Positions 12,393 through 64,000 of a DNA stretch of 64,000 bases are shown one piece after another (position 1 is the first letter of the stretch; the number at the start of each line of letters is the position of its first letter). Made by a program: the position numbers and the translations under genes. The notes below the pieces were generated by a model. The model saw only the letters and a program-made list of their open reading frames with translations, did no database searches and was not told where the DNA came from. Source of the stretch: Utricularia gibba (Eukaryota > Streptophyta > Magnoliopsida > Lamiales > Lentibulariaceae); NCBI GenBank assembly GCA_002189035.1, contig CM007992.1:3286001-3350000 (forward strand), read 5' to 3'.

Positions 12393-12961
12393 TCATGGGC
12401 CAAATTTCGGGTCCGGGTCGGAGGAGGGATACCCTATTCCATGGCGGCGGTTCGGAAACAGGACGAACACTGTGCTTGCGATGGACCCGAACACCGCCGG
12501 CAGAGCGATGAGCAACGTTTTCTGAGTGGACGCGAAGGAAGGGTAGAAGCATTTAACCGAATTGGGGTCCAAAAGAGACAGAACCGCAAACACGAAGACG
12601 CCCAGAAACGCGTGCACGAAGTCCCCGATCCTTAGTCTGTAGGCCGACAAGTTCTCCCCTCCGATCCCGGCCACATGCCGCTCCTGGTCGCGATCCCGTA
12701 TCGCTTGACTCCCTGGCTGTCGGTATAGCTATCGGTGAAGGACGAAAAGAAGCAAGAAAGGCCGCCAAAGGCGATCAGCGCGCCGGATAGGACACGGTTG
12801 GCCGGGAGGCACTCGCCGTTGTTGGATAACAGAGGGTTTAGGAACTGGAATAGGAAGACGGTGCCGGTGGGAAGCAGATGCATCAGGCTGCCGAGGCCCT
12901 CGAAAGTCGACTGACCGGCGGCTCTAGGTCTTGTGTTCTCAGAGTTGGAAGACGCCGCCAT
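12393..12961 (-). CDS. DMP (DUF679) membrane protein, copy 1, apparent one-base frameshift
   Basis: The N-terminal part (start 12961, ATG of MAASSNSEN) and C-terminal part (from about 12674) lie in different frames. They join seamlessly if one base is added to the C4 run at 12656-12659: the frame then passes from GMWPG through [10 protein letters not shown] with no gap, giving 189 residues. DMP hallmarks: [20 protein letters not shown] (TM1), [51 protein letters not shown] (TM3), KCFYPSF, and [11 protein letters not shown] near the end; four membrane spans are expected. The DMP family acts at endomembranes; DMP8/9 act in gamete fusion and others in senescence. This pair looks closer to DMP2/DMP4-type members, but that is uncertain. 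Its tandem neighbour at 14198-14788 is intact, which argues the break is a sequencing error or a very recent loss. Confidence 0.8.
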
Positions 12962-14197
12962 TTCGATCTCCGATCCTGGAGCTGATCCCAATGCCTAAAC
13001 TGCAGCAACTCCGGCGATCGATCACACACGAATCTGTACCTGATCTGGGATATGATGAATGCAACTCAGCAACTCTTTGTAGATATATAGTGTGTTGCTT
13101 CCACGTGCAAACTGGGGAATTCAACGCTTTAAGAAAAGACAACGCAAACTTGCCGATGTGCATTCCCATTTCTAGCACCTACGTCCCCTTGCTTCTCCCT
13201 TCAGAATATTGCAAGTCATGTATGATTCCAACTTCCCACATTGCCCCTTCCAACTTCTATACCATTCCAAAGTCAACTGTGGATAGTGCGAGGATAAGAC
13301 GGTAATTGTCCACTAAAAATAATATTCCCCATTTTCTATTTTTTTAAATAAAAGTCAGCTGTCCTTTAATTAATTAAATACGATGCAATTTAATGTCGGT
13401 ATAATCATGGAGTAATCAAAATTAGTCTACTGGATAATAAAACCTATTAAATAATAATATTTTTGTTATTAAATTAAGATTTGTTGATTAATACGTATTT
13501 GTTAAATAAGGTCTGACCAAACAAAGAGTCATCCCCAAAACACACCAATAGAAATGATATGTAACATCAAATATTAATAATCAATATTCAGGAATGAAAT
13601 TCGTATTTATATTGATAAATTATTTACATTTAATTATAAATTCTATGAAATTTCAATATATAACATACACTGTATTTATTAATTTATCATCTACAAATCT
13701 CACTAACAAATTTCAACTCTTAAAATAATTTTTTTTTTGAAAAAAGTTTAAACTAAATATAAATAAAATGTACTACAAATAAAATGTAACCATCCATCAT
13801 ATATTTACATGATATTGTTTATTTTGAATACATAAGTATTTTGATTTTATATTATTCATTTAAAAAAATCTCATGCAAGATTAAAAAAATTATTCTATAT
13901 AAATTGTCCATCTTTACTATCCGTAACCAATGTAGAATTTATCTAAAGTTATTCTATACTCCCTTTAACCGAGCTCTTCATATTTTTAAGAAAAATATAA
14001 AATATTAATTTTTATTTTAAAATTTTTCAAAAAAAAAAACTATCAAATAGACTTATCTTCAACTCTATTTTGAATATAGTGAACATAAGAAAATATGATT
14101 TTTTACTGCAAACTATTCAAAAAAAAATAATGCAAACGTTTTGTTATTATTACAGGAATTAAAAATTGGTTATATAATGAAACATAGCTTTCTTCTT
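12962..14197. other. intergenic between the two DMP genes
   Basis: About 12962-13310 is less AT-rich and probably the promoter and leader of DMP copy 1. The remainder is AT-rich with poly-A and poly-T tracts. No gene is supported. Confidence 0.6.
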
Positions 14198-14788
14198 TCA
14201 GGCTGAAGGTGAACCGGATTTGGAGTGGCCGGTGGAAGAGGGAAAGCCGATCCCATGGCGCCGGTTCGGGAACAAAACGAATACAGTGCTGGCGGCGGCC
14301 CCGATCACCGGCGGCAACACAACGATCAACGTCTTCTGAGTGGAGGCGAAAGAAGGGTAGAAGCACTTCACCGAGTTGTTGTCCAGAAGCGCCAGAACAG
14401 CAAAAACGGTAACACAGAGAAACGCATGCACGAAGTCCGCGGCTCTCAGTCTGTACGCCGACAGATCTTCGCCGTGCGCTCCTGGCCATATGCCCTTCCT
14501 CGTCGCGATCCCATATATCTTGAATCCTAGGCGATCCTTGTAGCTATCGGTGAAGGATGAAAGGAAGGAAGAGACGCCGGAGATTGCGATCAGGGCGGCG
14601 GTTAGGATCCTGTTCACCGGGCCGCAGTCGCCGTTGTTGGATAAAACAGGGCTTAGGATCTGGAACAGGATGACGGTTCCGGCAGGGAGGAGATGGACCA
14701 GGTTTCCGAGGCCCTCGAATGCCGACGTGGCGGTCGACTTCGATTGCGGCGGTGTGATAAGATTCTCGGAGTTCGCTGATGTCGGCAT
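14198..14788 (-). CDS. DMP (DUF679) membrane protein, copy 2, intact
   Basis: An intact single-exon 196-residue protein. The start at 14788 (MPTSANSEN) is chosen because it aligns with MAASSNSEN of copy 1; the longer upstream frame to 14953 has no family similarity. The order is the same as copy 1: [20 protein letters not shown] (TM1), [20 protein letters not shown] (TM2), [43 protein letters not shown] (TM3), [30 protein letters not shown] (TM4), [11 protein letters not shown]. The C-terminus is about eight residues longer than copy 1. Both copies lie in the same orientation about 1.2 kb apart, a straightforward tandem duplication. Function is inferred from the family only. Confidence 0.9.
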
Positions 14789-16333: not shown

Positions 16334-17400
16334 CTAACGTGTTCCAAGTGTCATGCGTCTCCCTTTCATCAACTTGCTTCTGAAACTCAACTGAAGCACC
16401 TCGCCAAGCGTTAGCAGGAAGCACCACAGAACAGTTAGCAGAACTGCAAATGGCCGGTTTGCTGCTACTAGCCCCACAACGATAATGAAACCAACAAGAA
16501 GTAAACTTGCATCCTCTCTTGCTCCTTTAACTTGAACAGATTCAGAGAAATTAGTATGAACCGCATCTTCATGTTTACCTGAAACAGGAGACTCACATTC
16601 TGGTTCCCTGTTGTTCTGGGATTGATTTGCTTCTTCGATCTTTTGAGGGTTGCTCCCTTTTGGAAGTCTTTTGCTGAAAAGCTTTATCAGCTTTGATTTC
16701 ATGTTACCTCTCTTTGACATTTTCTTGGGTTCCTGTTTCATCTCCAACATTTTCTGATGAATTACTGGAGAGGCTTGAATTTCCTTTACCGGGGTTGCAG
16801 GAGAATCAATGCACTCAACAACTGGCATGGCATCTTCTGAGGACTGGATCAGAATATGACGCCTTACTCTGGCTAGCACAAAGGGGTTCCTCCAAAATAA
16901 CCCTGTTTCCTCCAAGAAAAGAGTCAGCTTCGCCAGCACAGAGTTCAAGATATGATCCGGAAAAAATAGTAAGAACATGGAGATTGAGATTCCAATGCTT
17001 AATTTGTCTGTCCCAGCAACAAAAAGACAACCAAGAACATCTGGAAAGCAACCACGAAGATGCTATTTGAAGAAACGCCATCACTTTTTAGGAGAACACT
17101 TTTGGATTCTCCTTCCGAAGTGGGAAGCTCATCTGTGTCAGAATGAACTGAGGAAGGCGTTGGTGATGGAAGACAAGGCAGAGGATCCTCTGCATCAACA
17201 GAGCACTTGTCGAAACGCTTTTGCTTGGATGGTTTCTTCATTTTCTCCTGATTCTTCATGAACAGATCAACAAGTGAAGTTGAAAGCCCCATTTCCACAA
17301 CAAGAGGAGACCCATCTCGCCGTTTCCAAGAGTTGTGCAAATGATCACTCACAAGTTGAGAAATTCGCCCACCCTTCACCTTCCTCCACAGTAAAGGCAT
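16334..17400 (-). CDS. ERT2-like plant protein of unknown function, apparent break near 17012
   Basis: Two minus-strand frames make one protein. The first, from 17400, begins MPLLWRKVKGGRISQLVSDH, continues with SPLVVEMGLSTSLVDLFMKN and an acidic Ser-rich stretch, and enters a membrane span (IFVVAFQMFLVVFLLLG). The second continues LSIGISISMFLLFFPDHIL, has a basic middle region (MKSKLIKLFSKRLPKGS), and ends with a two-part hydrophobic segment (LLLVGFIIVVGLVAANRPFAVLLTV, shown here as a description, not a motif). Adding one base to the CCC at 17012-17014 or the A5 at 17021-17025 gives 355 residues. A 59-nt intron (donor in AAAA/GTGTTC, acceptor TTTCCAG) would give 335, but that is very short for a plant intron. 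It resembles what I recall as the ERT2 family, and position beside HDH1 and GHR1 fits At4g20880. Function is unknown. Confidence 0.6.
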
Positions 17401-20163: not shown

Positions 20164-23100
20164 CTAAATGGAAGAAAGGTCCTCGTATATATTTTTGATA
20201 CCAGGCCTCTGAGAAAGAGGCCGGATGCATTTGAGAGCCACACCAAGAAACTCCTTCATCCCTTTTTCAGCAATGGGTGCATCCCTATCTGGCGCCAGTG
20301 CAGCATCCCGGCAATCTGATCCTTGGCCCTTGGCCACTCTCAAACGAACCCAGTCTGTCAATTCGATGCCCCCATCTGCTCCCGAGACAACCTCACCAGC
20401 ACATCTTCCTGTCAGGAGTTCTAGCAGGATAACCCCAAAAGCATAGACATCTGATTTGAAAGTGGGAAGTGGCTTTCTCGAAGCAGCTAGTTCAGGACCC
20501 CTGTATCCTAAGACACCAGCGTCAAGAATCTGTTCAGTTGTGCCTGATTGCGTCATCAGGCGGTGAAGGCAGTAGTCCGCGACTCTGGCGTTCAAGTCAG
20601 GCCCTTCCAGCAGTATATTGGTTGCTTTGAGGTTTCCATGAGGAATGGCTCGGTCGAGATGGAGATAGTTCAGGCCACGTGCAATATCAACTGCTATTTT
20701 CAGCCTCTGGGGCCAAGTCAAGGTTGGTCCTTTTCTTCCTGGTTTATCTGCAAAGGATACAAGTTCATGTTAGCAAGATGAGTTGACAGTGACGAGGTTG
20801 AGGGGGGTCGGGACTCTAACCAAAGAGGAAACTTGCAAGACTTCCTGGTGAAACGTAATCCGAGAGGATCAGCTTCTCATGCTGTGTTGGACCCCAGTAG
20901 TATCCTCTCAAACCAACCACATTGGGATGTCTGATATTCGCAAACTTCTTGGCTTCTTTTTCGAATTCCTTCTTTTGCTTAACAACCCCATCTCTCAACC
21001 ATTTCACAGTAAGAAACATTCCATTTTCCAATGTTGCTCTGTAGGATGTCCCGTGGGTGCTCCTTCCAAGAATTTCTGCTGGCGCCTTGGAGAGTTCTTC
21101 AGCTGTAAACGAGATTGTGTCATCGAGAAAATAGAGCTCACCAGCGAGCTGTTCTGGAGACCTGGAATCCAGTTTTGAAAAACCCTCCATGGCAAAAGAA
21201 TCACCAGACTCAGGTGACCAGGAGAGCTGACTGGCTTTTTGTGGGGAGGAATCAGTTGCTGCACTCATTTTCCCTTCACTGACTACAGTTGCCGCCCCTT
21301 TTCTAGAAGTCTCATGACCATGTGGCGCAACCATCATTCCACAAGAACTGTCTCGGCCTTCGAAGCTTGAAGGAATAGGTGAAGTCTGTTGGCTAACATC
21401 TTTGGTGCTTGCAAGCCGCCTGTTGCTCCTTGTGGTGCAGATACAGCGGATCAGAACCACCGCCAAAAGGATGGAAACGAGCAGCGCAGAAATACAAGCA
21501 ACAACTATCATGACTATGATGATGGTTCTCACATGATTTTCCGATGAACTGTGACCTGAGCCATGATCGGTGTTCGGAATTTCCAAGTCAGAGTTTCCAG
21601 GATAGAAAGAAGAGCGAGGAAACTCTCTCAAATTTTCAGGGACTAACCCCGAAAGGCTATTGTATGATACATTGAAGCTTTGGAGACTTCTGGACAAGTT
21701 CATAGGTAATGAGCCTGTCAAATAATTCCTTGACAAGTCCAACACCGTGAGTGTGGAGACATCACCTATTGATGTTGGGATTGAGCCAGAGAAATTGTTC
21801 CCTGCAATGTTGAAAAGCTGAAGTTGAGAAAATGCACCTATGTTATTAGGGATATCACCGGTGAACCGATTGTTGGAGAGATTGATGAGACGGAGAACTG
21901 AATGATTAGAGACAAGTGACAGATCGATCCCCTGGAAAAGCATATTGTTCTGCAGGTGGAGTTCATTTAAGCTTGATGAAGCTAAGAGCGAGGGTGAAAG
22001 AGGTCCCCCAACTGATTGAAACTCAGATCAAGGATTGTGAGTTTTCTATACTCAGTAAGTACTTTCGGAAGAGTGCCATTCAAAGAATTACCAGACAGAT
22101 TGAGGTAGTTCAACCGCAAGAATTGAGCAGTTTCCTCTGGAATTGGTCCAATCAATTTATTTTGGCTAAGATCAAGGATTTGTATGTCCCCCATTTGAGA
22201 ATCCTCATCAGACTTCCTTCAAACTGATTTCTTGAGAAATCAACCACAACACAGCTTCCGGTCAGCAGAGGAAGTTCACCAGATAACATGTTGGAGGACA
22301 GATTAAGGGTATGAAGTGTAGTTGAAGTGATCATACCAACAGAACCTGTGACATAATGGCACAAAGAAAAGCTATTAGCTATTGCAGATTTATGACGAAA
22401 AGCCTTGGCATTTAGTCTGCATACCTGAGAGGTTGTTTCTACTCAAGTCCAACTCTTTCAGCATCAACGAGTCACCTTTTAAAAGGTTAAAAGGAATGAA
22501 ACCAGAGAAGCTATTGCTTCCCAGTCTAAGGACTTGAATATCATAGGCAAAGTTGAAACCAGGTAACTCCCCTGAGAGCTGATTATGGCTGAAATCCAAA
22601 ACCTTCAAGCTTCCAAAAACCCGAGCTTCGTCTCCACCAACAAGTGATCCTTCTATCTGGTTATGGCTAAGATTGAGATGGCGAATCGAGGGAGATATAA
22701 AATTAAGGATCTTCTGATGCTCCTTGTTCATAGAGCACACCAAGGAATTCCCACTAAGATCAACATAGCTGGCATTCGCAAGGAGCAACAACTTCAGATC
22801 AAGTTCTCCGTCAAGCATGTTTCCATGTAAGTCAAGTACATCCAGTTGGTTCATCTGCTCTAACTCTGTGGGAATGCTCTTTGTGAAGGCATTCTGTGAC
22901 AGGTTAAGGTACACCAGCCCTTCCAACTTCGTCAATGACACAGGCAATGGACCTGACAGAGAATTGCGGCTCAAATCCAGGGAACGCAGTGATGCGAGCT
23001 CAGAAATCGAATCTGGGATTAGGCCGGAGAGTCTGTTTCCAGCCATAGACAGGCTCTGTAAACTAACTAGCTCCCCAAGCTCTGAAGGTAGTGATGAGGA

Positions 23101-23495
23101 AAACAGGTTATCAGAGATATCCAAATACTCCAAGCTCCTGAATCCAACAAGGTTCGTAGGTAACTTCCCTGAAATTGAGTTATTTGCAAGTGAAAGCTTC
23201 ACTAGCAGACTGAGATTTGACAGTGCACCCAAATCAATCTCAGCTACCAGCTGGAGGTTATCAAGAACCACTGCCGCAACATTGCCACCATTACACATGA
23301 TACCATTCCAAGAAGATGGGCAGCCATTGAAGTCTATGGCCTCATCATTCCAAGAATCAAGCACAAATCCAGTTGGGTCATGCTTTATTCCTTTCTTGAA
23401 TTCAAGCAAAGCTGAAATGTCTTGAGAAGGGAGTTGCCCCCAGCTGCTGGATGCACAACAAAGAACCACAACCAAGAGCCTCAACCCAGCCTCAT
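20164..23495 (-). CDS. GHR1: GHR1, LRR receptor-like pseudokinase; three apparent one-base deletions
   Basis: Exons: 22425-23495, 20821-22345, 20164-20747. Signal peptide, then GQLPSQDISALLEFKKGIKH, WNGIMCNGGNV, about 20 LRRs, LRR end near FYPGNSDLEIPN, a TM (IVMIVVACISALLVSILLAV), then a kinase-like domain with GRSTHGTSYRATL and VKW. The loop reads HGNLKATN where an active kinase has HRDLK, and DYC replaces DFG, so it is predicted catalytically dead, as known for GHR1. In Arabidopsis GHR1 sits at the plasma membrane and is needed for SLAC1 activation and stomatal closure. The frame breaks at three places: CCC 23485-23487 (separating the ATG at 23495 from the signal peptide), C5 22188-22192 and C5 22005-22009. 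One base added at each gives 1060 residues, near the roughly 1053 I recall, with exon phases that fit. The introns are 22346-22424 and 20748-20820. Confidence 0.92.
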
Positions 23496-25170
23496 TCTAG
23501 ACTATCAGCAGAGGAGAAACACAGTGACCTTGGCATCACGTTCTAGAAACAGTGTCCACAGCATTGCAGCAACAGAGAGGAAGAAGCAGTGAGGATTCCA
23601 GATCTGCACATTTTTCATAAAAACAGAGAGAATGCAGCAGAACAGGAGAAGAAGAGTTTGTTTCACAGATCCGAGCTTTTGAACTCAAAAGAAGCTGCCA
23701 TTTGAAGACACTGCGAGAGTCCTCTGGAAGCAGAAAGAAGAAGAAACAAAAACTGGAGCAAGGTGCAAAATGGAAAGGGAACAAGTGTTGATTATGCATT
23801 GAAAGCAGAACCCCATCCACTTCACGCCAAGGTTATAACTGTCAGTGGCCAACCCTTGGCATCTCCGAACAGCTCCTCGTTCTTCTCTGCATGCCTTCAG
23901 AACAGCAACTGTTGATCCACTCCAGCGTCAGCCCTAAATCTCCACCCACCCTTCTTCTCCACACACCGTACAGAAAAAGGTGGAGATCCAGGCATGAGTA
24001 AAAAAACATCCAAAAATTTAAAAAAAAAAGGGGGAAAGCAGAATCATTAATGTCTCTGTACGGTTATCTCTTAGGAAATGATGGTGATAGATGAAAGTGG
24101 GCTCCACCGAGACAGCGTTGTTACAGAGCGGGTCCCCCAGGTGGCCTTCCGCGAGACTCTTTTTATATATATAACTAATTAATATTCGGAGGAAAATAGG
24201 GACACAATTGGACCTGGGGTTGTGGGCCAAATGGGGCTCATCCCCATATAATAGATTATTATTCGATTCGAAAACGAATCGAAAATGATTTTTTTAAACT
24301 ATCATTTCATAAATCTTAGTTTACTATTGATTTCAGTTTTTATTTTGAATTGAAGTTGAATTTTTAAATTTTGAATCAAATAAAAAACATTGAATCCAAC
24401 CGAAATTAAAAAAAATGATTTTTTAAAAAATTAATTTTGAGACATCCATATGAATTATTATACATATCAGTGAAATTTATTATTGTTTTAAAATTTTTTT
24501 TATCTTTCATAAAAATTATTAAAAATATATAAAAAGATGCTAAAAATAGAAAATGTTTTCCATATATTCATATGATTCATTAAGAATGTTTGAGAAATAC
24601 ATTATTTTTTTAAATAGTTTTTCAATCTTTTATAATGACTATTAAGGACACCTGATATCAATTAAAAATAAAACTAACGGTTCATCGATTTCCATTAATT
24701 CCACACGCACTCACAATTTTTCAATTCCAAATATCTCAAATCAACTCAAAACCGTATGATTCCGATTTCAGAACTAGAACCCGATCTCGTAACTAAAACC
24801 GTATAGATGCTCACATTCCCGAACTGAAATAGATCAGAACCGTTATTTTAGTTGCGGTTTGAACCGATTACAACTCTGTAATAGACTAACTAGTTAGCAT
24901 GGTTTAAGGTATGTTTATCACACATAGGATTTAATCAAACTCAAACCAGATCAACAGGGACGATAATGCACAGCACAGCAACTTTTCTTTTCGGAATGCG
25001 CACAACAGATTAACAAACCAAGAAAGATGATGATGCACTACTGCACAGCACTGCAGTCCTCTTCTCTGGTTCTCTCCCAACACCAGGGGACAAGCAGACA
25101 GTTTGGAATAATGCGAAAAAGCAGCAGCCATGGACTTGCATAAACAGGGTGATGATGGAGGAATGAATGC
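23496..25170 (-). promoter_or_regulatory. GHR1 5' leader and promoter, then AT-rich spacer and KAB1 3' flank
   Basis: 23496-24000 has mixed composition and purine-rich tracts and is the probable GHR1 leader and proximal promoter. 24240-24900 is AT-rich. 24900-25170 is the probable KAB1 3' UTR. Short minus-strand frames in the leader (for example 23536-23820) have no family likeness. No further gene is supported. Confidence 0.5.
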
Positions 25171-27254
25171 CTACCGGTAGGAATCTGGACGCTTGGGCTT
25201 GCTTTGGACCACCTTCTCTATCTTCTCCATCACGGCGGGAGTCAGCAATGGGATGACATTCACCGCCTTCATGTTCTCCTGAATCTGGTGGACAGGGAAT
25301 TTGCAGACAATGTATGAGGGAAGGAGGGGACGTCCACGACGAAGGTAGAGAAAGCTACACAAAGGGTGACTGGATCTTCCATCCGGGGCACGAGAAACAG
25401 GCCCAATGAGCAGAGACATTGTTTCAAGGGAGCAAGGAAGAAATCATGCAGACCTGGGCTACTTTGGTGGCACCGGTGATGACTGTTGAGACATTAGGAT
25501 TTGCAGCACACCATGCGATTGCCAATTGAGATAAAGACACTCCAAGCTCATCAGCTATTGGTTTCAGCCACTCGACTTTCTTTAGTGATTCATCCACCAA
25601 GGACCGGCTTGCAAGATTCTGAGGCAAATACACTTGTTTATGAGGTCTTGGAATCATATGGGGGAAAGAAGATTTGAGGATTTCAAAAGCAGATGCTACA
25701 CCAACGCATGATTCAATTGGTTATACCCAATACTGAAATGATGCCTACGGACTTGTTGAGCTGAATAAGTTCTGTAGCTTACAGGAACATAGAGCCCCAC
25801 AACACAAACATGCCATGATAAAGACACAAACATGATCCAACTAAGTAAACTCTAGTGACCATAAAGACATCAAAACTGAATGGTTATAGATCTAATGTAA
25901 GGAAGAGAAGCAAAAACACCCGAACCTGACAACTAAAGAATGTAAAAGCGCTGAAGGTGTCGAGAAAGGAGATGGAAACAACAAAGGAAACAGAGGGCAC
26001 AAAACTGGTGAGTTACCTTATAATTTTCCAAGGCAAAACGACTATCCGGTGGAATGTTCCCTGAGTTATATTTTCCGGTGAGAACCCTGAGGCCAGCGGA
26101 CTCCAAGTTGTGAGCCCAAGGCCATAGTTAGTATACAGAGGTAGATATTCAGATTCAACCTGGAAGAGTTTGGAAAAAGAAATCAAATTACGGCACTTGG
26201 TGCATTTGGGGTCATGTTTTGCAACCCACAACCAAATATGCACCAAAGAAAGACAAAAAAACCAGAAAGGAAAACAAGGGGCATCGGCCTGTTCCTTAAA
26301 CCAAAGACTGAGTATTGACTCTTCTGAGATGTTTTTCTTCTTACCTTAATGGCATCAAGTCAACTTTCAAGTTTGGCACAATTACAATACCTACTCATCT
26401 ATAGACTGACCTTCCGAGAAAAATCCAAACCCACCCACAAAGAGCGAACTTCACATCTTTTCCTCTCGAGAATGAAAGCACACAATTTCAAGATAACATG
26501 CATGTTCCCAGAATCCTGATGCTTCGGTTTCCATACATAACTAAAAAATCCAAAAACCGTAGGAAAAGAATCCAAAAAGATGCCAAATGAAGGCGGTTTG
26601 CAAGCTAAACTTCGGAAACATAAAAAACTTCTTGGAAAATAAACAAAAAACATCGAAAGCAAATGAAATTTAAATAGTTCCAGGAAACTACCCTTGTTCT
26701 AGAGAAGAGATTGTACTCAGGTTGTTCAACAATCGGCCCCACAAGATCAAGCCTTTCAGCAATACCCCAAGCCTCGGTAATCTGCTGAGCACTCCACTCA
26801 CTGGTACCCCAATAATAAGCCCACCCCTGATCAATCACATGGTTCATGGCTCTCACAGTTTCCTCGATGGGGTGGTGGTGTCGGGGCGATGGCAAAACAG
26901 GACATCCACATACTCCATATCCAGTCTCTTCAAACAACTCTTAGTCCCTTCGAGTATATGCTTCCTAGATAAACCCTTATCATTGGGGCCAGATCCGCCC
27001 CAGAAGATCTTCGTCGACACGACAATATCAGATCTCTTCCACCCCAGCTCCTTTATCGCCTGACCCATGATCTCCTCCGCCCGGCCGTTGGCGTAAACCT
27101 CGGCGTTGTCGAAGAAATTAACGCCGTTGTCACGGCAGCATTGGAGGATAGTTTTCGCATCCTTGACATCCAACTGGTTCCCAAAAGTCACCCAGGCGCC
27201 GAAGGAGAGCTGGGAAACCCTCAGGCCGGATCTCCCCAGGTTATTGTACTCCAT
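25171..27254 (-). CDS. KAB1: K+ channel beta subunit, aldo-keto reductase fold; two apparent one-base deletions
   Basis: Exons: 26692-27254, 26017-26159, 25454-25618, 25171-25284. With one base added to G4 at 26869-26872 and one to CCC at 26085-26087 the protein is 328 residues, the length I recall for Arabidopsis KAB1. Motifs in order: [21 protein letters not shown] at the start (described, 20 residues at most here: [14 protein letters not shown]), [16 protein letters not shown] with the catalytic-type Tyr, STKIFWGG with the Lys, [43 protein letters not shown], and the C-terminal [16 protein letters not shown] and KPKRPDSYR. Kv-beta-type subunits bind K+ channels and NADPH. Without the extra bases, exon 1 stops soon after [10 protein letters not shown] Met two codons upstream (27260) is an alternative start. 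Confidence 0.9.
25619..26016 (-). other. KAB1 intron 2
   Basis: A 398-nt intron with a GTAACT donor after ENYK and a CTCAG acceptor before NLASRS. No internal gene or repeat was seen. Confidence 0.75.
26160..26691 (-). other. KAB1 intron 1
   Basis: A 532-nt intron, donor GTAGTT after FSRTR and acceptor TTCCAG before VESEYLPL. A short frame inside (26399-26662) has no family likeness. Confidence 0.75.
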
Positions 27255-30081
27255 CGACACCTCCTCCTCTTCTTCTCCAAACTGTAGACTCCAAGAAATC
27301 CGAATGTTGTCTCCTGGAATGGAATGTCAGGACGGCATTGGAGCCGTGATTCCTTTCTTCTTCAATACTTTTAAAAGCTTTGACACGTGGCAGATATTTT
27401 AACGTCATTTTTTAATTATATTATAATTAATAATATATGTGAATTATAAATGTTATTTTATTAAAATTTAAAATTGTGTTGATAAAAAGTTAAATAATTT
27501 TAAAAATATGGTTAAAAAGTCATCCCATGAAACTCTTACCATCATACACCTTGATAATCTATTATCCTATATTTTTAACGTTTCATTTACATTTGTACAT
27601 ATTTTTTAAAACTTTAAATCTTGTCATTGAAAAAAAATTTGTTATAAAAATTAATACAAAGTATATTTAAATAAATTTAAATATGTTAAATGCGTTTTTC
27701 GTCAATAAAAAAATGTATTTTATGTTAAGATCATTTTGAAAAATAAACATTTTTATACTATTTCTCAAATACACTAAATTAAAAAATTTACATTGTGAAT
27801 GATCATTTTTCTAACACAATGTCTGACATTGTCATATTTCTAATTCATACTTTTTATGTTAATGCAATTCTACATCCCTAAACTATACTTTATTAAATAA
27901 TTAATTCCTTAAATGCCAATAGATTGGACGCCTACGCAGGTTTTAATATCATTAATAGCCCGGTGGATTACCCGAATTGACCGTCTATTAACAACTCATC
28001 ATGAACGTTAATTTTATTCTATTTTTAAAAAAGAAAAAGAAAAGAAAATTGATTGGTGTTTATGAAAACGCACAATTTTCCATCTCGTTGCACTGCAGCC
28101 GCACCCGCGTCGGACTCGGGAAAGCGGAAGGGAGGAAAGCATTCCATGTGGGGCTGACGCGGGCTACAATTAATAGTGAATTAAACTCCTAGACAGGGAC
28201 TTTGACGTTGAAAAATGCTCATTACCTCCATCTTAAGACACTCTTTGGTCCGTGTGCCCGCTCCTTTTCGAGACCCGTCGGATAACTCGACCCGAACCCG
28301 GTTTCGTTGAATTAATAAATATCTTGTTTATATAATCGCTCATCGTAAATATAGGATTCAGTTGCCATCGGTTCGAGATATTTAGAATCTAAAAACATTT
28401 ATCAGTCATTATGGAAATTTTAAAAACATTTAAAATAACGATAAGCTTCTCAAATACCCTCAACGCATGTGGATGCTTGGGAAATATCTTTATTCTTAGG
28501 ATTATTTTTATACATCATTAACAATCGTTATGGAAATCTGAAAAATAGTCTAATGAAACATAAATATCCATAATGATTCATTAGGTGTTTCGAAATTAAT
28601 ATCTATTTTTTAAAACACACAGTTCAAACTGAAACTATCTGATTTCGATTCTTGTTTGATTCAATATTTTCTGTTTCAATTTTGAATCAAAATCATGCGA
28701 ATTGGTTCGGATTCTGATTTCGGTTTTGGTTTCAGTTCGGCTCAAAGTTTAAAAATACGATTTCGAAGTCAATAGCAAACTGTGGTTTACGAACCGACGG
28801 TTATAATAAACAGTTCTCCTAGGAACAAATCTCAACTCTATTCTCAAGTTAGGGGCGGGGGTCTCACACGTGGGTGGTGCTCGGTGGAGAAAAAGCGCAA
28901 CGTCCCGGACCTACCGAGTACCGACCTCCTCTCCAGTCTTCCAAACCCTTAAAAAATGGAACCTCATGACATACTCCTGTCCCACATCGACTCTGCAACA
29001 ATCCATTTGGGTATTAAATAAAATGTTTTTTAAAAATATAAAACCTTCTGTATGATTAGAAACTTACAATCTTTTGAAACAATTTTTCCTGGAAGTTCAC
29101 TTTTTAAATCAAATGGAAACCCATTTTTTTTCAAAATTCGAAAACATTGGTGTAGAAAGGGTTTGAGAATGTGAAGAAAAAAGGACAGACGGCGAAATCA
29201 TCCACACTCGCAATTACTGCCGCCGAGACTCGCGGCGGTGGGGAACCAGCTCAGCCCCCCGAGGACCACCTAATGCCCTAAAAACTCTTTGACTATTTTA
29301 ACCCTCCTAAAAATCCTCACACTTAAAATTTATTTATATTTTTCAGAAATAAAAATAGTTTTATTTTATAATATTTTTACTGTAAAAGTAATTCTATTAA
29401 AAACACTTTTAAAATTATAATTACAAAAATTATTTTTAGAAAAGTAAGAAATTGATTACTTTTATTTTTTATTTCTATTTTTCAAAATTATTTTTAAAAA
29501 GTAAAAATATGTTTTAAAATTTTCCAGAACAGTATTTAATTCCCAATTCAAAAATTATACAAATAATCCCAATTAAGCCCCTAAACTCAAAATTCTTCGT
29601 CAAATAACGAGTTTAATTGAGTTTCATTGGTCGGCGTAGGGTATGATGGTGGGGACGTCCACACCTTTCCTTTTCCCAGCGTTTTATTATGGAGCGGGGG
29701 ATTTTTCTCCCATTCCTCAGTTCAATATTAAATGCCTTTTGTTTTATTATTTATCTTGTTGGGTGAGTAAACAAAAAATAATGAAGAAATATTTAATGAA
29801 TTTGTGTATTTCTAGAGATACTATTTATTGCACCTCCCTACCTTTTTTTCCCTTTTTAATAAATATTTTCCTAATTATTTACTTTTTTAGTATTTAGCAT
29901 CTTTCTATTAATTTGCATACAGATAAATAAAAAAAACCGTTATTCAATTTATGTGTTTGGTATGTAGATATACGGTTCATGTATAAATATGTGTAGGTAT
30001 TAATATTATACTTTCATATAAATCTAGTAATATTAAACATATATACGAACACATAAAAATATTATAAAAATTAATAAAATA

Positions 30082-30112
<31 letters not shown>

Positions 30113-30591: not shown

Positions 30592-33463
30592 ATGGCGGTG
30601 TTCGTCGAGAGGCGGCGGCACTGGGCTTTCACGCCTGCTTTGGCTTTTCTCGCCCTCGCTGTGATTTGTGTTGCCGTTGTTGATGGAGATCACGGTGATG
30701 GATCCCTGATTTCGAGGTTTTTGTTTTTCGACTAGCACATTTTACGAGTGGTTTCTATGTTGCTCGGCGGTTTTCTTGTTTTGCTCTGTCTTTGCTGAAA
30801 CGTCATTGTTGTTCTTTTGTTGCCGTTTGAATCTGCAGTAGATTAGAGGACGAGAAGTTGCAGAGGTCTACGAACTCAACATTTTCCGCAATGTAAGTAA
30901 AACGGTCGGTGTTTTGATTCGAGGTTTGGCCCTCAGATCTTCATCCCCAACTCATGACTCTACATATTCCCCAATGCATCTTGACCGTTTCCTTCATTAT
31001 CACCAAATTCTCCACCGATTCGCCTCCCAATAAACGCCTCCGCTAAAATGCACTTTACAAACAGAGGCTCTTCTCTCTGGGGGATGCCGGCGTCGTAATC
31101 GTGACGCCGGTTAAATCAAGAGGGGTTTAATGATTTGATTCTCTTCTTCTTTTTTTTTTTTGTTTCAATCTCCCACTTTTAAGACCGGCTTTGACTGGTG
31201 ACTTGGATGTCTAGTGAAGGAATATAATACTGTTATTATGGCTACTTTTTAATATCTTCCTCCAAATCCCTTTACAGTGATGCGCTCCGGCGACTGTTTG
31301 TTTTCTTAACGCCAATTGTTACCATTATCTTAATGTGTCCGTTCCACAAGTGAATTTTGCCGCTGTCGGTGGCTGCTAGCTGACACCCCATGTGAAAGTT
31401 ATTACCAGAGTTGCTTCCATTTTCAAGTTTCATTCTCTTCTCCCCCCTTTTTGTGTTTTCTTTCTTACTTTACACCAAGGGTTCCTCCCCCAAAGGGGGT
31501 CCCCCTCTTGGGCTTTTAACCTGTCTAAAACTGTAGAATATTAAACTCTACTCGATAAAATTCGGCGAGTTTGGTGCGTCATTAATGCTTGATGGGGATT
31601 GTGGTTGTTGTTCAGGTCGAAAGGAATTGATGAGGATGAAGCTTTTAATGAACATGCTGTGCATGACCCCGAAGCGGTTGCAAGGATGGTCGAAATGTGG
31701 GTGATTCTCTTTTTTCTCTTCCCATCTTTCTTTTTCCATCTTTTTCTTTTAAGTGGAGTGAACTGACTCTGTGAATTCAGAAGCTTTTGGTTTTAAAATC
31801 ATAAATGGTTTACAAACATGTGGTGTGTGATGCTGCTGGTAAGCTTTTAATATTTTTCAACTAGAGGTCTTGTGGAGTATTCAATGCCGCCGCTGCATCA
31901 GTACCAGATCTATAGAAATCGTATTCCGTACATGTCCTCCTCGATTTTTTTTGTTTATTGCTTCAAATTATTCTGTTTTTTGTCACGGAAAGGTGAATCA
32001 TGCTCTTGTTACTTTGCTTCCAACAAAGAAAAAGTGTCTATAGGGATAACACTCGAGTTTCATGTCGGATGAGCAGTGCATAACATGAAATTCTGCAACT
32101 TCTTTACAGGACCATCAGCAACAGCACTGAGAGGAGAAAGCTGGGATTTTTTCTTGTGGAACCGGTAACCCCATTGATGATTGCTGGCGCTGTGATCCCA
32201 ATTGGCACAGGAACCGCAAGCGGCTAGCAGACTGTGGTATTGGTTTCGGCCGCAACGCGATCGGTGGCCGAGATGGACGTTTCTATGTTGTTACTGATCC
32301 TGGTGATTATGATCCTGTTAATCCTAGACCTGGAACCTTGCGCCATGCTGTTATCCAAAGCAGGCCTCTCTGGATCGTTTTCCAAAGGGATATGGTTATA
32401 ACATTGAAGCAGGAGCTGATCATGAATAGCTTCAAGACTATAGATGCACGTGGAGTCAATGTTCACATCGCCAATGGAGCATGCATCACTATCCAATTTG
32501 TCACCAACATCATTATTCATGGGTTGCACATCCATGACTGCAAGAGAACTGGTAATGCTATGGTCCGGAGTTCGCCTTCACATTATGGTTGGAGAACCAT
32601 GGCTGATGGGATGCCATTTCGATCTTCGGTTCGAGCCATATTTGGGTTGACCACAATTCATTGTCTAACTGCGCTGATGGTCTTGTGGATGCTATCATGG
32701 GTTCCACAGCCATTACCATCTCGAATAATTACCTCACTCACCACAATGAGGTAACTTATTCTCCTGGTTCGTTCATACTTGTTGTGAAACAGAATACTAT
32801 ACTACTCTATTCTTATGTATATTTGATTTATGGAGCAGGTTATGCTCTTGGGACATAGTGATTCCTACCTTAGAGACAAGCAAATGCAGGTGACGATCGC
32901 GTTCAACCACTTTGGTGAGGGGCTCATTCAGCGAATGCCGAGGTTTTTATCTGACACACCACAGTTCTGATACCGAATAATTTATTATAAATTTGTGTGT
33001 GAGCTGATGCAAAATGTTGTAAATCTTTAGGTGTAGACATGGATACTTCCATGTGGTGAACAACGACTATACCCACTGGGAGATGTATGCCATTGGTGGA
33101 AGTGCAAATCCCACTATTAACAGCCAAGGAAACAGATACCTTGCTCCAACCAATGCATTTGCAAAAGAGGTATTCATTGCAAACGCCCTTGGCAAAGCAT
33201 CTGTGTAAAATGATTTGGATCCTGATTTTTTCCTTCATCAGGTGACTAAGAGAGTTGATACAGCAGAAAGTCAGTGGAAGGGCTGGAATTGGAGATCAGA
33301 GGGAGACTTGATGCTAAATGGAGCCTACTTCACTCCATCCGGAGCTGGCGCTTCAGGAAGCTATGCCAGAGCTTCAAGCCTGAGTGCGAAGTCTTCTTCC
33401 ATGGTCGCATCCATCACTTCCGGTGCCGGTGCTCTTGGTTGCCGCCGAGGCCGTCAATGCTAA
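30592..33463 (+). CDS. pectate lyase, PL1 family; two apparent one-base deletions in exon 4
   Basis: Exons: 30592-30716, 30839-30892, 31616-31696, 32110-32750, 32839-32942, 33031-33169, 33242-33463. Residues about 1-31 are a signal peptide. Then come a plant-specific N-terminal segment ([31 protein letters not shown]), the Cys motif [70 protein letters not shown] and [17 protein letters not shown] with its conserved Arg/His, and the end GCRRGRQC. The enzyme cleaves de-esterified pectin by beta-elimination in the wall and needs Ca2+. The frame breaks at 32143-32152 (GGG or T6) and at GGG 32608-32610. One base at each restores 455 residues and correct phase at the exon 4/5 junction. The gene belongs to the large PLL family; the subtype is not assigned. 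Confidence 0.9.
30893..31615 (+). other. pectate lyase intron 2
   Basis: A 723-nt intron between exon 2 (ends FSA plus AT, donor GTAAGT) and exon 3 (acceptor TTCAG). T-rich with no internal gene seen. Confidence 0.7.
31697..32109 (+). other. pectate lyase intron 3
   Basis: A 413-nt intron, donor GTGGGT after VARMVE and acceptor TTTACAG. No internal feature was seen. Confidence 0.7.
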
Positions 33464-34289: not shown

Positions 34290-35838
34290 TCAGTCCATGG
34301 CGGATGATATGCAGGAAACAGGAAGGGCCCAAAGGGACTGAGCCTTCTGCAGGGTGAACCCAAATTTCTCCTCCATGTCCATGTCTTCTTCCAGCTTCCA
34401 GTCGAAGGAATTCAACAGGGAGCCCAACATCACCGGCACCATTCTATTCGCCAACGGCTGCCCGGGGCAAGATCGGCGTCCGCCGCCAAAAGGGATCAGC
34501 TCGAAATCATGACCGGCTTCCGATTCCAGGAACCGCTCCGGTTTGAACTTTAGGGGATCTAGCCAGGTGCTTGGGTCTCTTCCGATGGCCCAAACGTTGA
34601 TCATAACGTGCGTATTTTTAGGCACCGTGTAGCCGAAGACTTGCTCATCCTTGTCCACGGTGCGGTGGATCAGCGGCGCCGGTGGGTGAAGCCTAAGCGT
34701 TTCCTTGACGATGCACCGGAGATAGGGAAGGTTGGGGATGTCGGATTCTTTGACGGCATTTCCCTTTCCGATCACCTTTTCGAGCTCATCTTTGACTTTA
34801 GACAGAGTCTCGGGCTCCTGAGTGTCTCCGCCATCGCCCACTCCATCGTGCTCGACGTTGTGTCGGTTCCAGCGACGAAAAGATCCTACGAGAACACGCA
34901 ACGTCTTCAGTAAACAATTTTCTGAAACATCAGAGCGGAATATTTACCAGGCAGAGGTGCAGGATGTGATTCATGTCGAGTTCATGAGGACTTTCTCTGC
35001 TCATCGTGAGGAGACTATCGATCACATCCTCGCTGCATATGGTCCCCGGAGTGCTCTTCTGCTCCAATCTTTCATCAATCAGTACTCTGCAATCGTTTAT
35101 GACCTTCTCGTAATAGCCAGTCAGGCGATGTCTGACGCCCTGTGGATCAATCTTTTCCAGAAATGGAAAGAAGTCGACCAGGTTGGGTTTTCCGATCTCC
35201 TCCATGATTTTCACGACCAGTTCCTTGAATTCCTTGGCGGAATCAGAGAACGGATCCGTCAGATTCATCGAGAAGATGGTGTTGGAGAGCAGATTCAGGG
35301 CCGTCCTGAATGCAGCTCGACCCACATTCACAGGGACGCCGCTCTCACAACATTTCCGGCAGTAAGTGATCAGCTCCTGCACATTCTTCACTCGGAGATG
35401 TTGACACGCTCCGATGCGGTTAGCGGAGAAGAAATTCGAGTTGAGAAGCTTGCGTAAACACTTCCACTGCGGCGCCACCGGAAGCCACCCTACAGAGTAC
35501 TTGTAATGATCGAGAGCTACGACGGCGTCCGTTATCGGGCGGTTAGAAAACCGAAGGTCCTGCTTCTGCATCACTTCCTTGGCCGCCGCGGCGGAGGAGA
35601 AAACTACCGAATCACTGAAACCGAGCCGCATATACATCACCGGGCCGTGAACCTCCGCCAGCCGAGCCAGCGACTGGTTCGGGTTCTTGCCCAGGAGATG
35701 GATGCTCCCGATCAAAGGTAGCGGCTTTGGACCCGGAGGGAGCCTTCTCTTGACCCGATTCGGAAAAACTTTCACGACCCGGATCAACACGAGAACGATG
35801 AGAAAGCCGACGACCGCCGTGACGACTTCCATGTCCAC
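34290..35838 (-). CDS. cytochrome P450, CYP76-like, copy 1; apparent one-base deletion in exon 2
   Basis: Exon 1 is 34948-35838 and exon 2 is 34290-34885, with a 62-nt intron. The protein has an N-terminal membrane anchor (VVTAVVGFLIVLVLIRVV), the PPGPKPLPLIGSIHLLG proline hinge, the I-helix AGTDTTSS, ExxR in KETLRLHPP, a PERF-type KPERFLES, and the heme loop PFGGGRRSCPGQPLA. It belongs to the CYP71 clan and looks like CYP76 (terpenoid and phenolic oxidases); the substrate is unknown. Exon 2 changes frame at the GGG at 34812-34814. The equivalent place in copy 3 has GGGG and is open, so one missing base explains the break; with it the protein is 495 residues, ending SCISSAMD. Copies 2 and 3 follow on the same strand. 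A second Met lies at residue 3. Confidence 0.9.
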
Positions 35839-40919: not shown

Positions 40920-41450
40920 AGGGGACATCGGAGGAGTTCCAAAATCGATGTTACAGATGCCTTTTCCTGAGCAATTGGGGCTAGTTGTTTCTGGGCATTG
41001 ATTTTATGAGGTTTTGAGAAGTTATTGCTTAGGGGCTCAGAATGGCGTCCGGCAAGGTGCTGAGGAAGCAGCAGCTTCTGGAAGCCGGAAAGACAAAGGT
41101 TTCATCTGATTAACTAATCTGCGTTATATACTACATTGATGAGTATTGTTATTGTATCCTTGCTTGTACTCAATCAACATTACCACACAGAAGAGTTTCC
41201 CAGAAAGAAACCTGTGGACAAAGAGGTTGCTTCAATCTTCTGATGTCATTGAAAATGAAAAACAAGAATCTGAATTTCCTGTCTTATTTCCATTGATAAT
41301 CGCTTGTATACTCATTCACCTGTTACTGAAGGAGGAGCTGAGAGACTTGAAAGAGGGAGGCATATGCTAATGTTCAGTTGGAATGTGCAGCTGATGGAAG
41401 TGCAATGCTCTTGCCTTCTGAAGTCATTTAGCTGGAAGAGAAGGTAGTCA
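40920..41450 (+). pseudogene. BLISTER-like gene relic 1
   Basis: A first-exon-like piece at 41042-41098 reads MASGKVLRKQQLLEAGKTK and is followed by a GT donor. At about 41355-41448 a second piece reads EAYANVQLECAAD, then LLPSEVI, a stop, and LEEK. This resembles a coiled-coil stretch I recall from BLISTER (YANAQLECNAADERAKLLASEVIGLEEK region, described only). Most of the gene in between is gone, so this is a truncated relic, not a gene. BLISTER is a Polycomb-associated coiled-coil protein. It lies directly beside the 3' end of CYP76 copy 3. The identification is from memory. Confidence 0.55.
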
Positions 41451-41505
41451 ATCTAACTTGATGGATTGCTTTGTCCATGTTTTTTGAGAATTGGAAAATT
41501 CATCT

Positions 41506-43117
41506 TTAGAATAGCAAGCAAGCCAAATAATTCATGCAGAAGAATGATTTTTTTTTTGTTGGCATAAGCTCAGGCCAGTCCATGGCGGATGATGTGCAGG
41601 AAACTGGAAGCGCCCAAAGGGGCTGTGCCTTATGCAGGGTGAACCCAAATTTCTCCTCCATGTTCATGTCTTCTTCGAGCTTCCAGTCAAAGGAATTCAG
41701 AAGGGAGCCTAACATCACCGGCACCATCCTAGTCGCCAATGGCTGCCCGGGGCAAGATCGCCGTCCGGCGCCGAAAGGGATCAGCTGGAAATCATGACCG
41801 GTTTCCGATTCGAGGAACCGCTCCGGTTTGAACTCTTCCGGATCTGGCCATTTGCTGGGGTCTCTTCCGATGGCCCAAATGTTGATCAAAACGTTCGCGT
41901 TTTTGGGTACCGTGTAGCCGAAGACTTGCTCGTCCTTGTCCACACTCCGGTGGATTATCGGTGCCGGTGGGTGAACCCGAAGCGTTTCCTTGATGATGGA
42001 CCGGAGATAGGGAAGGCTCGCGATGTCCGATTCTTTGACGATATTGCCCTTTCCGATCACCTTCTCGAGCTCCGCTTTGACTTTAGACATCCTCTCGGGG
42101 CTCCTGAGTATCTCCGCCATCGCCCATTCTATCGTGGTTGACGTTGTGTCGGTTCCAGCGATGAAAAGATCCTACGAGAACATGCAAAGTCTTCAGTAAA
42201 CAGTTTACTGCAACATCAGGGCGGAATTTTACCATGCACAGATGCAGGATGTGATTCATGTTGAGTTCTTGAGGACTTTCTCTGCTCATCGTGAGGAGAC
42301 TGTCGATCACATCCTCCCTGCGAATGGTCTCTGGATTGCTGTTTTGCTCCAATCTTTCATCAATCTGCTCTCTGAAATAATTCATGAGCTTCAGGTTACA
42401 GTCAGTCAGGCGACGTCTGATGCCCTGTGGATCAATCTTTTCCAGAAAAGGAAGGAAATCGACCAGGTTGGGTTTTCCAAACTCCTCCGTGATTTGCACC
42501 ACCACTTCCCTGAATTCCTTGGCGGAATCAGTGAAGGGGTCCGTCAGATTCTTGGAAAAGATGGTGTTGGAGAGGAGATTCAGGACCGTCCTGAACGCAG
42601 CTCGACCCACATTCACAGGGACGCCGCTCTGGCAACATGTCCGGCAGTAAGTGATCAGCTCCTCCACATTCTTCTCCTGGAGATGCTGGTTAGCTCCGAT
42701 GCGGTTACCGGAGAAGAAATTCAAATGGAGCAGCTTGCGTAGACACTTCCACTGCGGCCCCACCGGGAGCCAACCTACAGAGTATTTGTAATGATCGAGG
42801 GGTGTGACAGCGTCCGGTATCGGGCGGTTAGAGAACTGAAGGTCCTGCTTCTGCATCACTTCCTTGGCGGCCGCCGGGGAGGACAAGACTACCACATCGG
42901 TGAAGCCCAGCCGCAAGTACATCACCGGGCCGTGAGCCTCCGCCAGCCGAGCCAGCGACCGGTTCGGGTGCTGTCCCAGGAGATGGATGTTTCCGATGAA
43001 GGGTAGCGGCTTTGGACCCGGAGAGAGCCTTCTTTTGACCCGTTTCGGAAAGGCTTTCACGGCCCGGATCAATACGAAAGCGATGAGGAAGCCGATGACC
43101 GCCGTGACGAAGTCCAT
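41506..43117 (-). CDS. cytochrome P450, CYP76-like, copy 3
   Basis: Exon 1 is 42233-43117 and exon 2 is 41506-42171, with a 61-nt intron. 516 residues, frame intact. Anchor FVTAVIGFLIAFVLIRAV, SPGPKPLPFIGNIHLLG, I-helix AGTDTTST, KETLRVHPP, KPERFLES, heme loop PFGAGRRSCPGQPLA. It is more diverged from copies 1 and 2 than those are from each other, so it is probably the older duplicate. Its C-terminus after SAMD runs on (WPELMPTKKKSFFCM and more) because a short insertion (GGCC) displaces the stop used by copy 1. The gene is flanked on both sides by BLISTER-like relics. Substrate unknown. Confidence 0.92.
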
Positions 43118-54453: not shown

Positions 54454-54608
54454 TGGTGAATTCTTAGATTCATATGCCAGTTTGAGTTCTGGATGCCTCT
54501 CTTAGATTTCTTCTTGAATTCCATGTAACTTCTATTGCCAAGACAAGGGCTTGTGTTCAATGCAGTACACATTCAAAAAATTTCAATAAATCATAGGTTG
54601 CTTGCTGC

Positions 54609-60360: not shown

Positions 60361-61407
60361 CATCTTTTTGCTTCATCAATCCTCTTGCAAACAACAAGCA
60401 AATTACAAGGAACCCAACTCCTGCTCCTTCTAGTATTATAGCCACAGTTCTTCCTGTATTTGACCCTAACCCAGACCCTGCCCCTGTTTTCATCAAAACG
60501 GGTCCTTCTTCCAAGTTCAATAAAGAATACTAGATTTTGGACCACATGATATTATACGGCCAAATCATAGACATTAAGCAAGCAGAGTAGCATTAATAGC
60601 ATTAATATGCCTTATGAAAAGGCCGAAGAAGAGTAAGAAGAAAAAGATGGAGAAGATGGTGTTGATGATGACGAAGAAGATGAAGATGGGTCTACCAGGA
60701 ACTCCATTTGGGTAGTAACTGTAACTAATGAAGCATTTTTGAAGATAGACCTAAGCAGAAGCTGAGCTCCCACACCTGAGCTCTTTGAACAGCAGTTTTC
60801 ACACACTCCAAAATCAAAGATTCCAACAACATTTTCACATTGCCCCATGGCATAAATGGATTGGTAGCTTGAAGCATAGAAACCACTGATACCACTGCTA
60901 CTCATCCCATTTCAAGAGAAGACAGCTGTGTCTCTTCTCTCCTCAAACCCTACTCCTCCCACATTTTTCCCACTACAGATATTGTAAGCATCTCCATCCC
61001 AGAAATCTGAGGAAACCCTGAAATCTCATAAAGCATATAGCAACACAAAAGCCGAACTCTTGCCGCCATAGGCTTTGTTTATAATTATTGGTAACCTACT
61101 CACACAGTTATAGCATTCAACATTAGAAATGTCACCACTGCATTGAAAAAGGCCGCTTATTGTGGTCTGCCCACTCCCGGCATTCGCCTTGAAAAACCTC
61201 ACCGTTGACGACTGTGAAATGAGAGTCCCAAACACACACGCCAGCCCCTGGGAATAAACCCCCGTTGGATCTGATAAACTCTGTTTTGCGCATCCTTCAT
61301 ACACCAAAGTAGTGTACTCTGTCGCAGAATACGAAATGGGGTGACCTGAAAAACAGCGAAAATTGCTAGACAACGAAGAAGATATGATAACAAGAGAGGA
61401 AGCCCAT
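60361..61407 (-). pseudogene. PDLP-like DUF26 receptor-like protein, multiply disrupted
   Basis: All family parts are present in order but in different frames. The first DUF26 runs from YEGCAKQSLSDP through the Cys motif LFQCSGDISNVECYNC and AARV. Next come SGFPQISGMEML, FEERRDTA, YASSYQSIYAMGQCEN, ECVKTAVQRAQ, KCFISYSYYPNG and a Ser-rich linker, then GLGSNTGRTVAII and a TM (VGFLVICLLFARGL). One-base additions at CCC 61403-61405 (start, giving MGLPLLLSYLLRC), G4 61338-61341 and A2 60986-60987 repair three breaks like those in other genes here. But a two-base gap near 60795, an in-frame TAG nearby, and an unresolved shift near 61065 remain. PDLPs regulate plasmodesmal callose and defence signalling. 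It may be a true pseudogene with added sequence errors. Confidence 0.65.
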
Positions 61408-62910
61408 TCTCAATCCCCTTGAGGATTCACGGCATATTTTATTTTTTCCTTTTCCCACCTGAAGATGGCTTTAGCCGTTTAGGGAACAAGACTTCATTGA
61501 ATGCCGGACCAGCCGGCAGGAATTCCTGGTTTCTAGTGGCTTTTAAACCAGAGAAGAAGAGCAACAGCAAAAAAAGGACGCACCTTTTCCCTTTTCCTCC
61601 ATTCCCCCACTCTACCAGGCACTGTAGTACGCAAATTCTTTTCCACAGAATCTTAACTCCTTTTTCCTTTTTTTTTCCAACTTAAAAAAAAGGTTTTTTC
61701 CGTACATCACAACCGTTATTTATTCCAATGGGCCTAATGTAAAAGCCCATAATACACGGTAAATGGGCCACTAAAAAATGCCTCCATTTTATTCACATGC
61801 AAAATACCATTACTAATAAAAGCAATAGCTACTGAAAATCCCGACAGTTACAATGTGTCATCAAATTCTGTTAAGTTCGTTACCGTACGGTAATTTCCTG
61901 TATTTCATTTCTTTTTTATTTAACCAAAAAAAAAAAAACTAAACCAACCAAAATTCCAAGTCATCCGGAATATCGCGCACGGCCGGCGCTTCAGGCCAAC
62001 TCCGAGGTATGCACAAATATCTCTATCCATGTCTGCCTTTCAAAAAAACAAAAAAACAAAAAAGAAAACCCTTTTTTGGTAACTATTTAATTATCCATGG
62101 CTCCATGCAAATGATTGCTCAGCCCTAAATCCAATCCCCACCACACGCTGCAAACACACATGGTCGTCGCCTTCCTTCACCACAGACCGAAGCTCCCTCC
62201 TCCTCCTCCGTCTCCTCCGGTGGTATGTTGTAGGATTGGTGATGGCGAGAGAAGGGTCGCCGCCATTGGATGAGATTCTGATGATGGTGAACCATCTGAT
62301 TCTTTGTGTGTGTGTTTGGTTCTGATTCTTGTGTTTCTCTATATCGTGTGTGTTCCTTGTTTGTGTTTGTCTCGCATCGCATCGGGTCGGGTCGGATCGG
62401 ATTGATTCATTTACGGGTTTTCGAGAGGTGCCCTTTTTTGTTGTTGAATGGATGAATAGGGTTTGAGCCTCGAATGTGTGTTTTCGGGGTGGAATGGATG
62501 GAATGTACGAGCATGTGAATCACGTTTTTTTTTCTTGAAGTATATGATATGATACACGTGAGAATAATGCGGTATTTATGTCATTGTAGTAAGGGGTGGG
62601 GGCATTTATGTCATTATGCAATTTAATTTTTAATAAAATGAATTATGCGTATTCATTTTAATATACGTAACATGTGTTCATTGTGCGACAATTGCCGGAT
62701 TTAGATGGATAGCATGCTGTAAATGGAGTGGGGTTAGAATGTGTTTTTACAATTCTACCCATGAGTCAACTGGGTGCGTGCATGTAATTAATTATTATTA
62801 AGCATGCTGTAAATGGAACATGTGTTCCGTACTCCCCGGCAAAATAGGAGCACGTGAGGTTTGGCATTCCGTACATCCCTGAAGTTTGGTTCACTTGTCC
62901 CTAGAACGAG
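61408..62910. other. divergent intergenic region between PDLP-like (-) and CCT (+) genes
   Basis: Holds promoters for both flanking genes. 62100-62460 is of mixed composition with CT-rich and GA-rich tracts (CTCCTCCTCCTCCGTCTCCTC). A minus-strand frame at 62125-62382 is Glu-rich because it is antisense to the CT tract and is not credited. No gene is supported. Confidence 0.5.
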
Positions 62911-64000
62911 ATGATGAGCTCGACGGGAGGTGCGGAACAGGATGGAATCTTTGATTTCTGCTGCGATCCGGAGTTGTTCGGTGAAAATATTCACAACTCG
63001 GAGGTCGCATCAAGCTCGAATTGTTGCCAAGAGGACGAAAGCGCCGCCGCAGCCCCGGTTTCCGCCGCCGCCGTCAACGATGAAATAAAGCAGCCGGAGA
63101 GACTGGTATTCAACGAAGATCAGGTCGACAACGAGGTCTTGGGGTCGATCCACTTCACGGCGCCGCCGTATTTAGAAAATGCGGCTGCTTCTTCCGAAAT
63201 CTGTTTAGAGAATCAGAACATGACGGGGGTGGTTCTGGGTGGTGCTCTAGTTTCGCAGCTCAATTTCCAGCGATGGCTTCCCAGCTTGCTCCGCCGCCTC
63301 TAGAAGAAGAATGCCTGCCACCCTACTTCCGGATCAGAAATTCACAGGAAGCTTGCACCTTAATGGACCCAATGATGGGGCAATATCTGACCGCTCCTCC
63401 ATTTTCTTCATCTGAAACAGCAGGAATTTTCCCCTGCGGGATCCTGGGAAATGACTTTTCAAATCAAGAGCTTGACTTTCAAGGAGATAATGGTGGATTT
63501 TTCCTATCTGATACACTTCCAAGAGTCTTCAACTGCTCAAATGAACTCCAGGTACTATTTTTCAGCAACTAGAACCACAAAAAAAGTTGAATCTTGTTTA
63601 CATTTATCCTCCCATGTTAAATGGTCTCTTTCTTGGATCAAGGCACTTAATTGTGATGGGCAACTTCCTGCCCATGGCGGAGCAGGCACTAATCCTCTTG
63701 CATCAGACATTTCTAGTCTTGAAGATCCCACCTTCAAGGTTGGAAAGTTATCAGCAGAAGAGAGGAAAAGAAAGATTCAAAGATACCTCAAGAAGCGGAA
63801 CGAGAGAAATTTCAGCAAGAAAATCAAGGTGCTAACATTCATTCACTCATTCATTCTACGTATCAACATAAGAGACTTCAAAACATACAGTATGCTTGCC
63901 GAAAAACGCTAGCAGACAGCAGGCCAAGAGTGAGGGGACGGTTCGCAAAGAATGATGAACTGGGAGAGCTTGCTAGAACGACAGGGAGCAACCAGGAAGA
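62911..64000 (+). CDS. CCT-domain transcription regulator (ASML2/CIL-like), 3' part outside the window
   Basis: Exon 1 is 62911-63551, exon 2 63643-63828 and exon 3 from 63891 past the window end. The protein starts MMSSTGGAEQDGIFDFCCD and has an Ala/acidic-rich N-terminal half. The CCT domain begins RKRKIQRYLKKRNERNFSKK at the end of exon 2 and continues YACRKTLADSRPRVRGRFAK in exon 3. There is no B-box, so it is a CIL/ASML2-like single-CCT protein rather than CONSTANS. Such proteins are nuclear regulators, for example of sugar-responsive or chloroplast genes. Exon 1 has one frame shift at TTT/CC 63264-63268; one base there joins ALVSQLNF to AMASQLAPPPLEEE. With it exon 1 is 214 codons and the phases fit. 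Confidence 0.85.

Follow-up and report, generated by a model that had tools for sequence, protein, structure and literature searches.

Homopolymer indels that break genes are known from long-read assemblies (Kastor, PMC12007338; Polypolish, PMC8812927). For the PacBio genome of Utricularia gibba, a published account gives 88-fold coverage, HGAP assembly and Quiver polishing, with 581 contigs and an N50 of 3.4 Mb (PMC5793159), and the assembly studied here appears to fit that published genome. In the literature that we searched, which comprised papers other than the genome paper itself, no report of indel errors in this assembly was found. The stretch analysed here, called the window, is 64,000 nucleotides long (G000:C4:3286001-3350000), and the genome searched comprised 100.1 Mb in 516 contigs. 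A first-pass annotation of the window had described at least fourteen frame breaks in eight conserved genes and attributed them to homopolymer undercalling in the assembly. Undercalling is still the best explanation for seven of these eight genes, in a refined form that is specific to G/C runs and genome-wide; it does not hold for a PDLP-like gene.

For each named gene all six frames were read, and the sequence flanking every frame change was inspected. Proteins were aligned to DNA with a purpose-written aligner that permits introns and one- or two-base frameshifts. References were tandem copies or homeologs from the same genome where possible; those for GHR1 and KAB1 were Arabidopsis proteins, whose identities of 64% and 83%, respectively, are a partial check on the reference sequences. 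The eight genes are the following.

12380..12960, minus strand: DMP (DUF679) copy 1; one loss near 12660, adjoining a run of four G, on alignment to the intact copy 2 at 14.3-14.9 kb.
16334..17398, minus strand: ERT2-like gene; one loss at 17000-17014, with a run of three G as the likeliest site, on alignment to the intact homeolog L013.
20164..23510, minus strand: GHR1-like receptor kinase; two losses from alignment, one near 22189 and one near 22007, each at a run of five G.
25174..27252, minus strand: KAB1-like potassium channel beta subunit; two losses from alignment, one at a run of four C near 26866 and one at a run of three G near 26083.
31540..33460, plus strand: pectate lyase; one loss near 32609, at a run of three G, from alignment.
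34293..35830, minus strand: CYP76-like copy 1; alignment to the intact copy 2 at 37.8-39.3 kb puts one loss at a run of three C near 34815.
60697..61326, minus strand: PDLP-like gene; deletions of several lengths and two in-frame stops, on alignment to a homeolog at C413:990.1 kb.
62908..64000, plus strand: CCT-domain gene; frame geometry alone indicates a single change of frame, between about 63200 and 63290.

Frameshift-aware alignment gave eight single-base losses across six genes (DMP copy 1, ERT2-like, GHR1, KAB1, pectate lyase and CYP76 copy 1), and in the same six genes there were no gained bases and no in-frame stops. Three more breaks were placed by reading-frame geometry alone: one at the GHR1 start codon (about 23490), one in the pectate lyase 5' exon (about 32145) and the one in the CCT gene, for which a search for an alignment reference yielded a paralogue that did not span the break. 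With the PDLP-like gene set aside, the window thus holds 11 breaks in 7 genes in place of the fourteen or more in eight first proposed; the frame of GHR1 also changes at 22.43 and 20.83 kb, but these two changes are ordinary GT-AG introns and were not counted as breaks. The proposal that nearly all the breaks are repaired by adding one base held for all eight aligned losses and failed for the PDLP-like gene, with its 11-, 5- and 2-base deletions.

Pfam segments on either side of a break fell in different frames for DUF679 in DMP copy 1 (profile 3-84 and 89-163), for Aldo_ket_red at the first KAB1 break and for p450 in CYP76 copy 1 (269-295 and 293-451). When KAB1 was read with X at its breaks, PDB 8hw0 aligned with one residue opposite each X. 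Three CYP76-like genes stand in tandem at 34293-43115, where the proteins of copies 1 and 2 share about 90% identity and copy 1 alone is broken; alignment of copy 3 to copy 2 showed no break. The seven broken genes other than the PDLP-like gene are probably intact in the plant.

Selective constraint was estimated against homeologs or tandem copies. dN/dS was 0.12 for GHR1, 0.50 for the ERT2-like gene, 0.24 for CYP76 copy 1 versus copy 2 and 0.22 for DMP; saturation of synonymous sites prevented an estimate for the pectate lyase. When codon changes were polarised by CYP76 copy 3, the lineage of copy 1 had 22 synonymous and 16 nonsynonymous changes and that of copy 2 had 17 and 22, so that the broken lineage had no nonsynonymous excess over the intact one. 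Nothing in the broken copies points to relaxed selection, with the reservation that a very recent loss would escape a dN/dS test.

The context of the losses was assessed in 31 cases, taken from the window, the GHR1 homeolog, HSP70 and GRAS genes. Every possible single-base insertion near a break was scored, and a loss was assigned to a G/C run when extension of such a run (three or more bases) was among the insertions scoring no more than 8 units below the best one; the null was 300 simulated random deletions in intact GRAS genes, treated with the same tolerance. A G/C run of three or more adjoined 26 of the 31 losses and 52 of the 300 simulated deletions (17%; Fisher P = 8e-14, computed at tolerance 8 only), which bears out the earlier statement that the breaks sit in runs of 3-6 bases, mostly G/C. 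Localisation of a break depends on the tolerance, the strict setting favouring the reference residue, and the excess was present at each setting (18/31 versus 18/300 at tolerance 4; 15/31 versus 4/300 at tolerance 1). A/T runs showed no excess in the same test (9/31 versus 89/300). The other five losses had no adjoining G/C run of three or more.

Two homeolog pairs are broken at a common site, namely GHR1 (window 22189 and L012:1790, near a G run) and the GRAS genes L024 and L025 (C run). Common break sites of this kind suggest context-dependent error rather than random loss.

The same losses were found outside the window. Flagged GRAS loci were each aligned to the best match in a set of 18 intact GRAS proteins from this genome, and 19 one-base losses appeared in 13 loci. 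There were also three gains, one of two bases and two of a single base, and one of the single-base gains was accompanied by a stop. In HSP70, both loci that were read (C451 and C496) carried one loss each, at a G or C run. A genome-wide Pfam search of the assembly returned hits exon by exon, in which a lost base is seen as a pair of adjoining hits with an offset of 2 mod 3; by offsets taken by eye from the match tables, there were four such loss-type pairs in HSP90 and two in UDPGT. RNA polymerase subunit 2 showed no clear break in this genome, and the exons of the chaperonin family are too short to display breaks well. As rough rates, GRAS genes had about 0.4 losses per kb (about 44 loci of about 1.1 kb) and the coding sequence of the window 0.46 per kb. 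One-base losses run through the whole assembly, whatever the function of the gene.

Some DNA in this assembly is present twice: contig C241, of 31 kb, duplicates C304:2.223-2.258 Mb, and C316 duplicates a part of C412. C241 and C316 are probably alternative haplotypes or redundant assemblies, and they are useful for error measurement. Over 38.7 kb compared between copies there were 56 indels, 50 of them of one base, versus 38 substitutions; natural variation has several substitutions per indel. One GRAS ORF encodes 615 aa in C412 and 412 aa in C316, because C316 is one C short in a run of four. The indels of C241 are concentrated near one contig end, as would be expected of thin coverage there. 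An HSP70 paralogue (C304:2235.5-2238.0 kb and C241; L002-L005) has one break whose best placement is away from G/C runs, and since C241 and C304 both carry it, this break is probably a real mutation.

The PDLP-like gene is different in kind. Relative to its homeolog, whose frame is open across the aligned part, it lacks 11, 1, 2, 1, 2 and 5 bases, mostly away from homopolymers, and it has two in-frame stops, one of them a change of CAG to TAG. Among the aligned window genes, this one alone combines nonsense codons with frame-breaking indels of varied length, as a pseudogene would. Its dN/dS against the homeolog is 0.13, and therefore the decay must be recent. On its sequence, the PDLP-like gene is probably a genuine recent pseudogene that lies outside the artefact.

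Error had also been described as patchy in the window. There is weak evidence for this, as 10 of the 11 breaks lie within 12-36 kb, and a scan over blocks of seven genes, with approximate exon limits, gave P of about 0.01. On the other side, the number of genes hit was as random placement predicts (7 versus 7.9), and breaks occur genome-wide. Breaks may be concentrated locally, but the phenomenon as a whole extends beyond the window. When the genome was searched for another assembled copy of the broken zone at 16.3-36 kb, only paralogues and dispersed repeats came up. A dispersed, AT-rich repeat about 220 bp in length lies at 29323-29542 of the window; it has over 20 genome copies at 84-89% identity, and its inner part matches both strands. 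Blocks homeologous to the window are found at C413:0.985-1.033 Mb, with relatives of the CCT, PDLP and ERT2 genes, and at C4:0.50-0.54 Mb, with relatives of the CCT and GHR1 genes.

According to the explanation that we prefer, the assembly loses one base at short G or C runs, and each lost base shifts the reading frame and makes a conserved gene appear broken. Such loss occurs assembly-wide, at roughly 0.4 per kb of coding sequence, and may originate from long-read consensus error that survived polishing, with polishing, chemistry or later handling as candidate technical causes. We regard it as very probable that undercalling at G/C homopolymers explains the breaks, the PDLP-like gene excepted, because bases are lost and not gained, the losses lie at G/C runs, other signs of decay are absent and constraint is kept where measurable, and because the same signature appears in unrelated conserved families and indels outnumber substitutions between assembled copies. 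Three observations count against undercalling. The published 88-fold coverage (PMC5793159) should leave fewer errors; five of the 31 losses have no G/C run of three or more beside them; and the homeolog pairs with a common break site (GHR1 and GRAS L024/L025) need either context-dependent error or a real shared change. Genuine pseudogenisation, in which real deletions inactivated the genes in this lineage, has some basis, since real decay does occur here in the PDLP-like gene, the HSP70 paralogue shares its break between two separately assembled copies, and duplication of the genome in the lineage left spare copies of several genes. Nevertheless, pseudogenisation is very unlikely as an account of the other genes: those aligned are without nonsense codons, gains or longer frame-breaking deletions, their losses are almost all at G/C runs with no relaxation of constraint, like breaks occur in HSP70, HSP90 and GRAS genes genome-wide, and for KAB1 no second DNA copy was found in the genome search that would make its loss harmless.

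The lost bases could also be real and very recent, produced by a mutational process, in the sequenced plant or between its alleles, that deletes single bases at short G/C runs. In direction and G/C specificity the losses are as sharply defined as a mutational signature, and the copies that differ could be alleles; however, an excess of indels over substitutions between copies is unusual for natural variation, and the lack of enrichment of A/T runs at breaks is unlike mismatch-repair defects, which affect mainly long A/T runs. We know of no plant with a mutation spectrum of one-base deletions at short G/C runs, and we consider this origin highly improbable. Alternatively, real frame changes might be bypassed by frameshifting or slippage, in translation or in the transcript. 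The break sites common to GHR1 and its homeolog and to two GRAS homeologs would be in line with bypass; against it, tandem and homeologous copies are mostly without the break, and no shared motif other than the run itself was seen. To our knowledge, frameshifting on this scale has no precedent among plant nuclear genes, and bypass is hardly credible.

If undercalling is the right explanation, false frame breaks affect a large share of the conserved genes of this reference, as in some 13 of about 44 GRAS loci, and claims on gene loss, truncated proteins and pseudogene counts that are drawn from the assembly need checking against reads or transcripts. There is a precedent for such checking, as the truncated DCL3 of U. 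gibba was examined by RNA-seq and RACE (PMC8333044). The loss-only signature at G/C runs gives a simple flag for genes of this kind. Our results support the view that the feature is an assembly artefact and not biology, and that its value lies in a warning for gene-loss claims made from this reference.

Compared with known systems, the breaks resemble the errors described with Kastor (PMC12007338) and Polypolish (PMC8812927), where one-base homopolymer errors likewise break conserved genes assembly-wide. Those cases concern bacterial or small genomes, whereas ours is a plant assembly in which bases are only lost and the excess is at G/C rather than A/T runs. The likeness to pseudogene decay is that a broken copy has an intact homeolog or tandem counterpart elsewhere, and the PDLP-like gene fits this pattern. 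Unlike in pseudogene decay, the other aligned genes are free of nonsense codons, longer deletions and gains, and constraint was kept where it was measured.
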